From: a virus
Virus record (IMG/VR): IMGVR_UViG_3300047564_003952
Span: 1 to 20,284 of that record
DNA: 20,284 bases
Strand: one strand, 5' to 3'
Shown here: piece after piece, positions 13,780 to 20,162 of the stretch
How the letters are laid out: each line of letters opens with the position of its first letter
Numbering within the stretch: position 1 is the first letter of the stretch
Program-made: the position numbers and the translations under genes
The notes under the pieces: model-generated
Database searches by the model: none
What the model saw: the letters and a program-made list of their open reading frames with translations, nothing else
What the model was told of the DNA's origin: nothing

Positions 13780-15642
13780 TTATTCTCCCCCTAATGCTAG
13801 AATAAATGGTGTGAGAGTTGAGAACAAACTCTTAGAATAGAATGTGCCAGAAATAGTACCTGTCGTCTGATTGATTGTTACACCCTCACCAATTCTAAAA
13901 TTGCCTGCTTGGTCAGTGCTTGTGTAAACAACCAGACCACCGTTTCTCATATCAATTTCATTGTCTTGAATTGGAACTCCACCTTGATTAGGGAGAGCAC
14001 TGTTAATATTTGTTCCAGATCCAACATATTCAAACGAGTGACCAGAAGCTAAAACTCTACTTTGTTTGAAAAATGGAACCTGAGTTCCATAATCAAATGC
14101 ATATGGTACATTTTCATTTACAGTAATTGTACAAATACCAGATACAATTGGTGTAGAACTTATAATTGAATAATAAGTTGGCAGTACTTCCAACGTTGCC
14201 GTTGCTGTATTTATTCCAACATCAGGAGCACTGATTGTGATTGTTGGAGGAGTTACATATCCACGACCACTTGAAATAATTTCAATAGCAACAACACTAC
14301 CATTCACAATTTCTGCAGCAGCAAGTGCAGTTACACCCCAATCAGTAGGGGGGTCAGAAATTGTGACTGTTGGGGCTTCTAGATATCCTGTTCCACCAGA
14401 TCCGACTCTAATTTTTGAAACAGTGTAATAAAGTGAGTCAAAATAAACAACCTGACCATCAAAAGGTCTGATATCTTTAATGGATGCAGTACCACCAGAA
14501 ACATAAACCTGACCAGGAGTTGTTGATGGTCCAACATTCACAACAAATGAATTTGGAGAAGGTACACTCTTTACCTCAAAAACATATCCATTATTACCAC
14601 TTGGATAAGTTGCAATTCCTGCACTTGGATTTCCAATACAACTAAAACCAAGACCAGCAATCGTAACACCAGTTCCTACATTAAAGTTATGAGGATCTGT
14701 AGTTGTAATCGTTGCAACACCAGTGTTATTATCATAAACAGCATTTGAAACAATGTAGATCGGTTCATCTAAATTAACAGTGAACGTATCACTATTTGCT
14801 TCAGCATCAACTTCAATTAATCCAATATACTTCAAAGGTCCAACACCATCTGCAACTAGACCGTAGTTACCAAACGAAGCATTGGAGTTTGTAAGATCAC
14901 AAGCGCCACCAGATCCACAATAAACTGCAGTGTCTGGACAAATTGTAAAGAGTGAAACTAACTGAGCGTATCCTTCATTCGTGATTGAAACACCAATACC
15001 ATTCGCATTATATTGAGTATAGGAGTCCAAAACCATACTCTTGGTTGGACCAATTGCATCTGTACCATTAACCTTCATTCCAATACTGTTTGGAATAAAG
15101 TTGGTACAGTTCTGAACATAAGGCGATTGGTTCACATAGACTGGTTTATTTGGATTGAATGCTACAATCGCACCAGTATTTGCTGTCCCAACAAAGGACA
15201 TTTCGGCAATATAATTTCCATTACTTACATAAAAAAGGTCTCCTTGATTTTGTGGAGTAACGGAGACTTCTCTTAAACTTGAACCAACAATACTAACTTG
15301 TTCTGGAAGTGCAATTGGATTATTCTCTACATAAGATCCAGCACTAACTTTAATAACAGTTCCTGTTGTTGCTGCGGTGACTGCTGCTCCGATTGTTCGC
15401 TTTGCGTCTCCGAGTTTGAGTCCTGTGTTTGTGTCTTTTCCGTCTGGGGTAACATAAAGAATATTAGTAACAGTAGCGCCAGCGGCAACTCGTACAACTT
15501 CTGATCCGATACCTGCTCTATTTCTTACAGCATAGAGTTCTGCATCATTAATATTGTAGGCTAATTCGCCGTATTGTAGGGCTCCTTGTGCTGGTATTTT
15601 TCCAGGTACAGCAGAGCGTTTAATCCGAATCGGAGTTCCCAT
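13780..15642 (-). CDS. beta-helix-type virion structural protein (620 aa)
   Basis: The N-terminal 60 residues (MGTPIRIKRSAVPGKIPAQG, ALQYGELAYNINDAELY) are a typical start for phage fibre or baseplate-appended proteins. Residues about 60-280 hold LYVTPDGKDTNTGL, RTIGAAVTAA and VSAGSYVENNPIALPEQVSIVGSS, the usual opening of a right-handed beta-helix (pectin-lyase-like) domain. The next part has two similar segments (GGTGYLEAPTVTISDPP and GRGYVTPPTITISAP), an internal duplication. The C-terminal end (GNFRIGEGVTINQTTGTISG) resembles fibre trimerisation ends. No clear active site is visible, so a glycan-binding or depolymerase function remains possible but unproven. It is the first gene of the structural run and has its own late promoter. 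It lacks an obvious Shine-Dalgarno. Confidence 0.78.
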   Translation of the reverse strand: MGTPIRIKRSAVPGKIPAQGALQYGELAYNINDAELYAVRNRAGIGSEVVRVAAGATVTNILYVTPDGKDTNTGLKLGDAKRTIGAAVTAATTGTVIKVSAGSYVENNPIALPEQVSIVGSSLREVSVTPQNQGDLFYVSNGNYIAEMSFVGTANTGAIVAFNPNKPVYVNQSPYVQNCTNFIPNSIGMKVNGTDAIGPTKSMVLDSYTQYNANGIGVSITNEGYAQLVSLFTICPDTAVYCGSGGACDLTNSNASFGNYGLVADGVGPLKYIGLIEVDAEANSDTFTVNLDEPIYIVSNAVYDNNTGVATITTTDPHNFNVGTGVTIAGLGFSCIGNPSAGIATYPSGNNGYVFEVKSVPSPNSFVVNVGPSTTPGQVYVSGGTASIKDIRPFDGQVVYFDSLYYTVSKIRVGSGGTGYLEAPTVTISDPPTDWGVTALAAAEIVNGSVVAIEIISSGRGYVTPPTITISAPDVGINTATATLEVLPTYYSIISSTPIVSGICTITVNENVPYAFDYGTQVPFFKQSRVLASGHSFEYVGSGTNINSALPNQGGVPIQDNEIDMRNGGLVVYTSTDQAGNFRIGEGVTINQTTGTISGTFYSKSLFSTLTPFILALGGE

Positions 15643-15668
15643 TTATGATATGCGGTATCTACCAGAAA

Positions 15669-15682
15669 GCAGTATGTACTGC
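15669..15682 (-). promoter_or_regulatory. small hairpin at the predicted 5' end of the structural-operon mRNA
   Basis: GCAGT and ACTGC arms flank a 4-base loop. With a predicted late start near 15683, the mRNA would begin almost directly with this stem, which could protect the 5' end. Confidence 0.4.
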
Positions 15683-15688
15683 CTCATA

Positions 15689-15696
15689 TATTTATT
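15689..15696 (-). promoter_or_regulatory. T4-type late promoter box for the structural gene run
   Basis: The minus strand reads AATAAATA, with a predicted start near 15683 and a leader of about 40 bases to the ATG at 15642. The box touches the TGA stop of the HNH gene upstream. Confidence 0.68.
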
Positions 15697-16067
15697 CAAC
15701 TTGCATTATTTCTTCTTGGACGATAAGCAAATAAGTTGGTTGGTGGATCAGGTTTCATCCAATTTTTAATTTTCTCATATCTTTCCATATCAAAAAACTC
15801 CTGTGAGAAGTACCAATCTTCCCAAGGAGTATGTCCCTTATCTTGGTTACAAGAGTGGCAGCAGCAGACTACGTTTTTTGTAAAGTCCAGTCCACCTTTT
15901 GACTGAGGAACAATGTGGTCTATGGTGAGGTTTTCTTCTGACCCACAATAGGCACATTGATGATTCCACTGTTCTTTTATATGTTGCCTCCACATTCGTT
16001 TCGCCTCCCCAGAACTTGTTGCGTGTAACTGAAACAAGTATTCTTTTGGAGAGTGTAGAGGTCCCAT
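15696..16067 (-). CDS. free-standing HNH endonuclease (classic HNH, zinc-binding)
   Basis: This 123-residue protein has an HNH domain at about 37-80: Cys pair C38/C41 (QCAYC), the catalytic-type D50-H51 in LTIDHIVPQSKGG, N65 in KNVV, and a second Cys pair C70/C73 followed by N74 (CHSCNQDKG). This is the standard beta-beta-metal nuclease fold with a structural zinc. A basic, Trp-rich tail may help bind DNA. Free-standing HNH genes of this size in T4-like phages are usually homing endonucleases that spread into the same site of related phages. The start codon lies in the 3' arm of a 7-bp hairpin, and a late box lies just upstream. The gene begins 3 bp after a 49-aa ORF. The target site is unknown. 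Confidence 0.85.
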   Translation of the reverse strand: MGPLHSPKEYLFQLHATSSGEAKRMWRQHIKEQWNHQCAYCGSEENLTIDHIVPQSKGGLDFTKNVVCCCHSCNQDKGHTPWEDWYFSQEFFDMERYEKIKNWMKPDPPTNLFAYRPRRNNAS

Positions 16068-16085
16068 AAGTTACTGCGACTTATG
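16065..16085 (-). promoter_or_regulatory. hairpin masking the HNH start codon
   Basis: The arms CATAAGT (16079-16085) and ACTTATG (16065-16071) are perfect complements around a 7-base loop, and the 3' arm ends with the ATG of the HNH gene. A late transcript predicted to start at about 16082 would lack the three bases that pair with the AUG. Read-through RNA from upstream would keep the AUG paired. Confidence 0.6.
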
Positions 16086-16220
16086 AATATTTATCTTCTT
16101 ACAGGCATCACGAGCATATGCCCTTGCCATACTGTCTACATTGGAACAAGGTTTACCAGACTCTCCACAGTAAGGGCACTTAGCATCTGGTGGGTCATTA
16201 GGGTATGAAAACTTCGGCAT
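16071..16220 (-). CDS. small Cys-rich (zinc-ribbon-like) protein, 49 aa
   Basis: This ORF starts with ATG at 16220 and ends with TAA at 16071-16073. It begins MPKFSYPNDPPDAKCPYCGE and contains C15, C18, C25 and C40, so C15-x2-C18 could form half of a zinc knuckle. It overlaps the end of the 107-aa gene by 23 bp and stops 3 bp before the HNH ATG, which fits a tightly packed phage operon. The composition (balanced charge, a CPYCG motif, no low-complexity runs) looks like a true protein. The late box and hairpin of the HNH gene are embedded in its last codons. The function is unknown; a small DNA- or RNA-binding protein is one possibility. Confidence 0.6.
   Translation of the reverse strand: MPKFSYPNDPPDAKCPYCGESGKPCSNVDSMARAYARDACKKINIHKSQ
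16088..16095 (-). promoter_or_regulatory. T4-type late promoter box for the HNH gene, inside the 49-aa ORF
   Basis: The minus strand reads GATAAATA, with a predicted start near 16082, so the leader of the HNH mRNA is about 15 bases. It is placed so that transcription begins within the 5' arm of the start-codon hairpin. Confidence 0.62.
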
Positions 16221-16521
16221 CACTCTGGTTCAATTGTTTTTGCTTTTTAACACCAAACGCATTATCAAATTGTTCATATATTTCTTTCCAAGAACCACCA
16301 ACTCCACCATCCATATTCACAACGATCTCATTGGTCGGCAGTGCCTTAGGAATCTCAACATCCACGACAGGACCCATCAAAAATTTGTTGCGTGTATAGG
16401 TTCGGTTCTGTGGATCAAAAGAAACCATCGCAAGAGCATCAGACTCTTCGCCACAGTCTAAAAGTTTTCTTCCAGTCTTTTTATCTAGAACTGAAAAATA
16501 TTCATCATTATACTTTTTCAT
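16198..16521 (-). CDS. uncharacterised phage protein, 107 aa
   Basis: This 107-residue soluble protein of mixed charge opens MKKYNDEYFSVLDKKTGRKL and has a central GPVVDVEIPKALP segment and GGVGGSWKEIYEQFDNAFG near the end. No catalytic motif, Cys cluster or membrane segment is visible, and I do not recognise the family. The ATG sits inside the last codons of a 40-aa ORF read in another frame, and its own end overlaps the 49-aa zinc-ribbon-like ORF. These overlaps suggest translational coupling in one transcript. There is no clear Shine-Dalgarno before the ATG. The unit lies downstream of the psbD terminator, so its transcription depends on read-through or an unseen promoter. Confidence 0.65.
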   Translation of the reverse strand: MKKYNDEYFSVLDKKTGRKLLDCGEESDALAMVSFDPQNRTYTRNKFLMGPVVDVEIPKALPTNEIVVNMDGGVGGSWKEIYEQFDNAFGVKKQKQLNQSDAEVFIP

Positions 16522-17819: not shown

Positions 17820-18257
17820 TTAGTGCTTATGTTCTTCCAAATACTTAATCATACTTTCAATCACACTCACATTATCTCCAAGAAGTCCCATTGCTGTGTT
17901 GCAATTATGGCAAAGAAGTTTTCTATTCTTACCAGTTGTATGGCAATGATCTACAACAAAATAATCAGTATTGTGCCTTCCACCAGGTTCTGTGGTATTA
18001 CAAATAGCACACTGGTTATTTTGTTCTGCAAGCATTAATTCATAATCTTTTTGAGTAATGCCATACGTTCTTTTAAGGTGTTGTTCCCGATACTTGATGG
18101 GATCGTGATTTTCTTTAACTCTTTTTCTATCACATTCTTTACAAGTTGAATGTCTAACCATACTGGTTTTATTTCTCAAATAAAAATCATCAATTGGTTT
18201 AGTAGTATCACAACTCTTACAATACTTAATTCCTTCTACCTGAATTGCTCTTGCCAC
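17820..18257 (-). CDS. endonuclease VII-like HNH homing-type endonuclease
   Basis: The start is taken as GTG at 18257; earlier frames are closed by stops and the next Met is at residue 33. The 145-residue protein has a possible N-terminal zinc ribbon (C13/C16 in KYCKSC, C39/C42 in TCKEC). A recombination endonuclease VII-type domain follows (about 64-140), opening with YGITQKDYELMLAEQ: C83/C86 (QCAIC), the catalytic D103-H104 in VVDHCHTTGK, and C116/C119 with N120 (LCHNCN). Stand-alone proteins of this type in phages are usually homing endonucleases and not Holliday-junction resolvases, which is also inferred here. It sits between the psbA terminator and psbD. An endonuclease gene downstream of psbA is also known from cyanophage S-PM2, where it targets psbA. 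Whether this one cuts psbA or psbD is unknown. Confidence 0.87.
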   Translation of the reverse strand: MARAIQVEGIKYCKSCDTTKPIDDFYLRNKTSMVRHSTCKECDRKRVKENHDPIKYREQHLKRTYGITQKDYELMLAEQNNQCAICNTTEPGGRHNTDYFVVDHCHTTGKNRKLLCHNCNTAMGLLGDNVSVIESMIKYLEEHKH

Positions 18258-19613: not shown

Positions 19614-19639
19614 ATAACACCATCCTTTTAAGAAGTCAA
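19611..19639 (-). promoter_or_regulatory. sigma70-like promoter of psbA, overlapping the late box
   Basis: On the minus strand TTGACT (19634-19639), a 17-bp spacer and TATGAT (19611-19616) are close to the bacterial consensus. The -35 overlaps the stop codon of the HNH gene upstream. The layout is the same as at psbD. Confidence 0.65.
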
Positions 19640-20121
19640 GTGGTGTATTGATTAATTCCTCTTATGTTCCCACCCCTTTGCTCACATCCCTTTTGAGGTC
19701 CAGGTTTAAGGTGAAGTTCATATCCAAACTTTGAGCACTCACAAATAGCCCTTTTGACTTGATGTTCTTTTAGCCCAAGTAAATCGGCAACTTCTTTTCT
19801 TGATAAACCAGATTGACGATATTTTAATATTGAAAGTTCTTGTTGTGTGGGTTCAGTTTTCTTTGGCGGTTTTCCTCTTTTTTCAGTTGAGTTTCCTTTA
19901 CTCTTCTTTGCCCAGTTAATTGCTTGTTTATCGTGAATAAGTTTATGAGTTGCTGGATGATAAACATAAAGATGCTCTGGAATATTTCTACCACCTTCAC
20001 ATCTTGGTGGGTTATGGTGAATATCAATGTCCTTCATCTGCTCATCGGTAAGTCCATAATGTTCTTGGGCAACCTTACGATAGTTGTGTTTATCAGTAGA
20101 AAGAACAATAGCAGAGCACAT
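19636..20121 (-). CDS. HNH endonuclease with C-terminal helix-turn-helix
   Basis: This 161-residue protein has an HNH-type core at about 33-64: DIHHNPPRCEGG (H35/H36), the Asn-containing RNIPEHLYVYHP, and THKLIHD (H59, H63). A basic linker follows (about 73-88, KRGKPPKK). Then comes a helix-turn-helix at about 96-128 (YRQSGLSRKEVADLLGL, HQVKRAI), which would read a DNA site. A nuclease domain plus a DNA-recognition domain is the usual build of free-standing homing endonucleases in T4-like phages. The gene ends at the psbA promoter. Its Shine-Dalgarno GGAG lies in the 3' arm of a 9-bp hairpin, with a late-type box in the loop. The target site is unknown, and psbA is only a guess from adjacency. 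Confidence 0.8.
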   Translation of the reverse strand: MCSAIVLSTDKHNYRKVAQEHYGLTDEQMKDIDIHHNPPRCEGGRNIPEHLYVYHPATHKLIHDKQAINWAKKSKGNSTEKRGKPPKKTEPTQQELSILKYRQSGLSRKEVADLLGLKEHQVKRAICECSKFGYELHLKPGPQKGCEQRGGNIRGINQYTT

Positions 20122-20124
20122 AAA

Positions 20125-20162
20125 AACTCCAAATCTATTATTATTTAGGTAGGTTTGGAGTT
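20125..20162 (-). promoter_or_regulatory. hairpin masking the Shine-Dalgarno of the HNH gene
   Basis: The arms 20125-20133 and 20154-20162 (AACTCCAAA / TTTGGAGTT) are perfect 9-bp complements around a 20-base loop. On the minus strand the 3' arm holds GGAG, five bases before the ATG. A T run after the stem means it could also act as a weak terminator for the gene to the right. Confidence 0.65.
20142..20149 (-). promoter_or_regulatory. late promoter-like box inside the hairpin loop
   Basis: The minus strand reads CCTAAATA, keeping the TAAATA core but not the first two bases of the late box. By T4 spacing the transcript would begin near 20136, after the 5' arm, leaving the Shine-Dalgarno free. 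Confidence 0.45.

Follow-up and report, generated by a model that had tools for sequence, protein, structure and literature searches.

With good probability, the sequence immediately upstream of the HNH endonuclease gene is where a mobile HNH cassette of T4-like cyanophages carries its 5' module for late expression; a hairpin over the start codon would act there at most as a weak extra brake. A late box and a short leader are conserved among relatives and move with the gene from one neighbourhood to another, and the arm that could mask the AUG is not conserved; promoter activity, the start site and a function for the leader are what we infer. The encoded 123-aa protein matched PF14279 (HNH_5, 1.5e-14) and PF01844 (9.5e-9) as well as PHROG 2214, HNH endonuclease (5e-34), and its M1 start was aligned in nearly all relatives, which came from searches at the protein level in viral contigs and phage records. 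The relevant features of the window, that is, the whole 20,284-nt stretch of viral DNA that was analysed, are as follows.

16065–16095, minus strand: start region of the HNH gene, reading GATAAATA-TTCAT-AAGTCGCAGTAACTT-ATG.
16088–16095, minus strand: late promoter box of the HNH gene, T4-type (gp55), exact GATAAATA, with TAAATA conserved among relatives.
16083–16087, minus strand: promoter spacer TTCAT, fast-evolving, holding the CAT (16085–16083) that is the potential partner of the AUG.
16082, minus strand: predicted late transcription start, an A and the sixth base past the box, where the conserved block begins.
16068–16082, minus strand: 15-nt leader AAGTCGCAGTAACTT, conserved in 76 distinct leaders.
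16079–16082 and 16068–16071, minus strand: inner stem AAGT/ACTT inside the 15-nt leader.
16065–16085, minus strand: 7-bp hairpin CATAAGT...ACTTATG, with its outer three pairs unconserved.
15696–16067, minus strand: HNH endonuclease gene, 123 aa, start without a Shine-Dalgarno (SD) sequence, stop TGA, identified by Pfam, PHROG and the M1 alignment.
16071–16223, minus strand: upstream small ORF, in frame, running through the box and the 5' arm of the hairpin and ending at a TAA that stands 3 nt upstream of the HNH AUG.
15689–15695, minus strand: second late box, ATAAATA, right after the HNH stop and serving the tail-fibre gene, with TAAATA near the HNH stop in relatives.
13780–15642, minus strand: downstream tail-fibre gene (PHROG 17885, tail fiber protein, 3.7e-190).
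20122–20162, minus strand: I-TevI-type switch before the gene at 19636–20121, conserved in relatives.

The late box that the first-pass annotation had placed at 16088–16095 is an exact GATAAATA, and almost all relatives keep a late box in this position. Exact copies of GATAAATA occurred four times on the minus strand of the window and not at all on the other strand. In cyanomyoviruses, NATAAATA is accepted as the late promoter (PMC2984593), and GATAAATA provides such a T4-type box about one helical turn before the predicted start. The HNH site therefore resembles the late promoters of S-PM2 and Syn9 in the box and in its placement relative to genes (PMC2984593), but other late genes lack a shared leader and have variable distances between box and ATG. 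Across more than 70 distinct leaders of the HNH family, the pattern was a TAAATA box 19–21 nt before the AUG, followed by AAGTCGCA-NNN-ACTT-ATG. In a set found by protein similarity alone, TAAATA started at −27 to −25 in 61 of 64 distinct leaders, and the box-to-ATG distance was 20 nt in 103 of 125 HNH genes, compared with a broad spread in other genes.

Conservation was concentrated downstream of the predicted start. Among the 76 distinct leaders with standard spacing, column information was 1.4–2.0 bits at −15 to −8 (AAGTCGCA) and 1.2–2.0 bits at −4 to −1 (ACTT); it was low at −7 to −5 and in the spacer columns, of which −18 carried only 0.12 bit. Changes counted by parsimony on a coding-sequence tree of 118 genes followed the same profile: 33, 26, 40, 19 and 14 at positions −20 to −16; 0, 3, 5, 3, 9, 4, 2 and 1 at −15 to −8; 19, 23 and 22 at −7 to −5; and 9, 11, 4 and 0 at −4 to −1. 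The sharp drop at −15 falls on the predicted +1 (box end + 6). A start near 16082, as had been proposed from the sequence, is predicted because A and G are preferred at the sixth base after the boxes of 153 non-HNH cyanophage late genes (A 66%, G 18%). Since the conservation border coincides with this predicted start, the conserved block would be transcribed leader and the CAT at 16085–16083 would belong to the promoter spacer, predicted to be absent from the late-promoter transcript.

The leader pattern appears, from collection-wide DNA scans, to stand essentially only before this HNH family. Among the listed matches to TAAATA-N8-TCGCA-N6-TATG, nearly all with a substantial ORF were located before an HNH gene of this family, and the remaining handful (e.g. 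L100, L118 and L152) preceded different proteins with unrelated leaders and look like chance. A second scan, with AAGTCGCANNNACTTATG and no box requirement, returned HNH genes, almost all with a box, or unrelated box-less chance sites. The pattern has limits within the wider family: at about 54% identity, members from ACG-2014f lacked the canonical box and leader and those from S-CAM7 and S-N03 had other leaders; a search with the ACG-2014f-type protein yielded only three further loci, and relatives in T7-like and other non-T4 cyanophages had neither late box nor leader. Several other origins of the leader were considered. It is not a general late-promoter feature, as other late boxes lack it; it is not HNH coding sequence, as leader and ATG are separated by an in-frame TAA both in the window and in GTAACTT variants; and it is not the C-terminal code of the upstream gene, as upstream genes end in varied frames and places. 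No nearby homing site of which it might be a copy was found in 1.5 Mb of flanks and empty loci.

The hairpin itself was present as described. CATAAGT (16085–16079) is fully complementary to ACTTATG (16071–16065), with a 7-nt loop and the HNH AUG in the 3' arm. The isolated 21-nt hairpin had a free energy of −3.9 kcal/mol (z −3.8), was absent from the minimum-energy fold of its 91-nt context, and left that 91-nt stretch no more stable than shuffles (z −0.46). Of the 591 ATGs in the window, 4 (0.7%) lay within a perfect stem of 7 bp or more, as did 0.4% in random sequences of local composition; for a single gene, such a stem is out of the ordinary without being extreme. A chance hairpin that regulates nothing and happens to lie next to an ordinary late promoter would be consistent with these frequencies and with the unconserved outer pairs. 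Strong conservation of the four inner pairs and of the CGCA loop across many insertion sites means that the underlying sequence is not due to chance even if the hairpin is, and we regard chance as an unlikely account of the site. Four of the seven pairs come from the family-conserved leader; the other three, which involve the AUG, are shared with this copy by only a minority of relatives.

In the reading of the first-pass annotation, the site is a switch: the CATAAGU arm masks the AUG in read-through mRNA, and late transcripts start within that arm, lose the AUG pairs and are translated. Its two structural premises stand, since the stem exists and the predicted late start, under a dedicated and conserved late promoter, removes the CAT; the same logic is also established for I-TevI, segB and mobE (PMC2988022). 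The masking arm is not maintained among relatives. Among the HNH-family leaders, the box is kept (in the 61 of 64 given above) and, with G-U allowed, all seven pairs form in 33 of 76, but an exact CAT occurs in only 16 of 76. All three AUG pairs, G-U allowed, formed in 49% of the 76 leaders. The product of the column frequencies is 0.70 × 0.92 × 0.78 = 0.50, and this agreement with independent columns indicates that the mask is not maintained in a coordinated way. Inferred changes showed no bias toward pairing, with 12 breaking and 2 making the pair at −16, and 17 breaking and 15 keeping it at −18. In a 35-row pair count, no pair changed on both sides and no compensatory changes were seen. With this CAT count, the 0.12 bit at −18 and common pair-breaking changes, the AUG mask is the least conserved part of the site.

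Accessibility calculations gave a mixed picture. In the window, the AUG was unpaired with a mean probability of 0.336 in the read-through transcript, 0.348 in the late transcript and 0.336 with a shuffled spacer, values that are essentially unchanged. The family means were 0.24 for read-through, 0.36 for late transcripts and 0.33 for shuffled spacers. AUG-covering stems of at least 6 bp, G-U allowed, occurred in 38 of 76 HNH leaders vs 13 of 153 other late genes, in a comparison where the HNH-family relatives are non-independent and share one ancestral leader. Because of this family-mean shift and the G-U stem excess, a weak masking effect on read-through mRNA is possible. The predicted late transcript would lose three of the seven hairpin pairs and keep the 4-bp AAGU/ACUU core. 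A ribosome on the upstream ORF (16071–16223) would also cross the 5' arm and stop at the UAA 3 nt before the AUG, and would thereby melt the stem in read-through mRNA. With the unconserved CAT, the unchanged window accessibility and the lack of compensation, an AUG-masking switch was rejected as the main explanation of what is selected here; the low stability and the missing SD also speak against it, and we consider it very unlikely. The 7-bp hairpin is probably for the most part a by-product of the leader, and an on/off switch improbable.

We then asked what the conserved leader might do in a late-expression module. The inner AAGU/ACUU pairs form in 61 of 76 leaders, and pairing with AAGT could be the reason why the ACTT directly ahead of the AUG is conserved. 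Because there is little variation in most columns, pairing and sequence conservation are inseparable for this inner stem. A role in late mRNA, as a 5'-terminal element read from +1 that serves SD-less initiation or 5'-end protection, with a weak stem ending beside the AUG, is a serious candidate that we nonetheless put somewhat below even. It fits the onset of conservation at the predicted +1 and the rarity of SD-like motifs, which were found in 3% of HNH-family leaders vs 19% of other late genes; sequence inspection revealed no SD in the leader of the window. The diverged leaders also have different short stems at the same place, UAUAC-GCAA-GUAUA in S-CAM7 and GUUG/CAAC in S-N03/MC09, and these hint, suggestively only, at a kept stem. 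The points against an mRNA element are that the inner stem showed no excess of compensatory changes, that stem-like leader ends were only modestly above shuffles (a statistic that is uninformative on unclustered, near-identical leaders), and that the loop CGCA is conserved as strongly as the stem arms. We also observed the UAUAC-GCAA-GUAUA hairpin, of GNRA type, right after the late box in the diverged leaders at L212:1470–1503 and in L326.

Alternatively, the leader may be a DNA operator, with the HNH protein binding AAGTCGCA...ACTT over the late start and repressing its own gene as I-TevI does. The block is conserved and partly dyad-symmetric, lies directly on the predicted start, and accompanies no protein other than this HNH protein; for I-TevI, autorepression via an operator that overlaps the late promoter is established (PMC2988022). 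In both cases a homing endonuclease gene has a conserved sequence at its late start. The I-TevI operator, however, resembles its homing site, and no recurrent leader-like site was found on either strand of 1.5 Mb of flanks plus empty loci, although the target may lie elsewhere; binding at the HNH leader is only putative, and we find an operator rather doubtful.

A second site in the window provided a comparison. The first-pass annotation had held that the HNH site follows the same logic as 20122–20162, and that two endonuclease genes sharing it argues against chance. The sites are alike in having a late box and an inverted repeat before an endonuclease-like gene on the same contig. They differ in kind: 20122–20162 is a 14-bp, SD-sequestering switch and far stronger. 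Its stem was found in 13 of 15 relatives at −18 to −23 kcal/mol (with one mismatch in two of these), its SD GGAG lies in the 3' arm, its late box is in the loop, and the 5' arm is wholly lost from the late transcript; the distant relatives L420 and L421 had neither stem nor SD. This is a true I-TevI-type arrangement, matching I-TevI, segB and mobE (PMC2988022; PMC3014915). The known systems, I-TevI, I-TevII, I-TevIII, segB and Aeh1 mobE, have late-promoter-trimmed hairpins over the ribosome-binding site that are very stable and sequester the SD (PMC2988022, PMC3014915). The HNH site shares with them a homing-type gene, a late promoter directly upstream, and an inverted repeat over the start that lies partly upstream of the late start. 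It differs in having no SD, a stability of about −4 kcal/mol only and outside the 91-nt minimum-energy fold, an unconserved AUG tier, and a core that stays in the late mRNA. Because the HNH site lacks an SD, stability and a conserved masking arm, the two sites lend each other no support, and the argument from their co-occurrence fails.

The gene at 19636–20121 (minus strand) encodes a protein of 161 aa whose C-terminal part is HTH-like (HTH_23, 5.6e-5, below the cut-off) and whose N-terminal part contains DIHHNPPRC...H. It had no Pfam HNH match, and is possibly a diverged HNH homing endonuclease with an HTH. Another gene of the window, at 17820–18257 (minus strand), belongs to the Endonuclease VII family and lies between the psbA and psbD genes, a setting like that of F-CphI in S-PM2; its leader had no late box of the HNH-gene type.

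Gene-context analysis supports that the late-expression module is mobile together with the gene. Module and HNH gene were found beside about 28 upstream and about 19 downstream gene families in 45 combinations, as defined by a simple clustering that is possibly somewhat over-split, and from this diversity it follows that the element travels with the HNH gene. The family of the small ORF at 16071–16223 preceded the HNH gene in 24 loci, with its stop at −3 in 17 of them. As expected of a free-standing homing endonuclease, the HNH gene was present or absent at similar loci in several contexts. Comparable loci without it (L402, L360, L393, L397, L399 and L406) had one late box before the tail-fibre gene, and occupied loci had a box-HNH-box arrangement; the upstream gene type of the empty L402 is common to the HNH-bearing L011 and L012. 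Given the single box at empty loci and the second box after the HNH gene, the gene is thus bracketed by late boxes at such sites. In about half of 133 loci, mostly those with a tail-fibre gene downstream, TAAATA lay no more than 10 nt from the HNH stop, and the idea that the cassette always ends in a late box was rejected on this count. We also noticed that the upstream gene often ends on a stop codon supplied by the late box TAAATAA, and that this happens in more than one reading frame (e.g. L012, L016 and L026). F-CphI and other free-standing cyanophage homing endonucleases are comparable: their genes too are free-standing, of HNH or Endo VII type, and lie close to late and psbA-region genes in cyanomyoviruses. 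F-CphI has a single psbA target, whereas the HNH family lies beside many different genes.

The tail-fibre leader has features of its own. On the minus strand, 15642–15695 contains the late box, the palindrome GCAGTAcaTACTGC and then GGTAgATACC before the AUG, with a hairpin at 15669–15682 and GGTAGATACC at 15654–15663. Over 97 such leaders, the four core stem pairs of the hairpin formed in 94–99% of ungapped rows, each with several pair types (GC, CG, GU, AU and UA), and GGTANATACC was present in 78 of the 97. This 5'UTR hairpin is strongly covarying and is present at HNH-less loci too.

The mechanism that we propose for the HNH site is a mobile, free-standing, homing-type HNH cassette with a gp55-type box at a fixed distance and transcription starting at A16082, from which a fixed 15-nt SD-less leader, AAGUCGCAGUAACUU, would run into the AUG. 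Settled between late genes, the HNH gene would have its own late box, as would the following late gene (e.g. the tail fibre), and it would be chiefly the late promoter that times HNH expression. The leader is most likely kept for its sequence, in either the late mRNA or its DNA, as a translation-initiation element, a 5'-end element or an operator. The 7-bp hairpin would then consist of the AAGU/ACUU inverted repeat of the leader plus three pairs from the variable spacer, acting as a brake on read-through mRNA at most. More speculatively, though possible, this may be a selfish HNH gene with a portable late cartridge (a box that often gives the upstream stop, plus an invariant SD-less leader) that settles at late promoters genome-wide and leaves box-HNH-box behind, its leader being a new initiation element or an autoregulatory operator.

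A start-codon hairpin beside a late box is insufficient for calling an I-TevI-type switch, and 20122–20162 passes the same comparative test. The compact, conserved, SD-less leader is directly testable. Homing endonucleases must fit the expression programme of their host phage, and a gene that takes one late promoter and leader to dozens of places would show how selfish DNA in T4-like phages can become independent of position.
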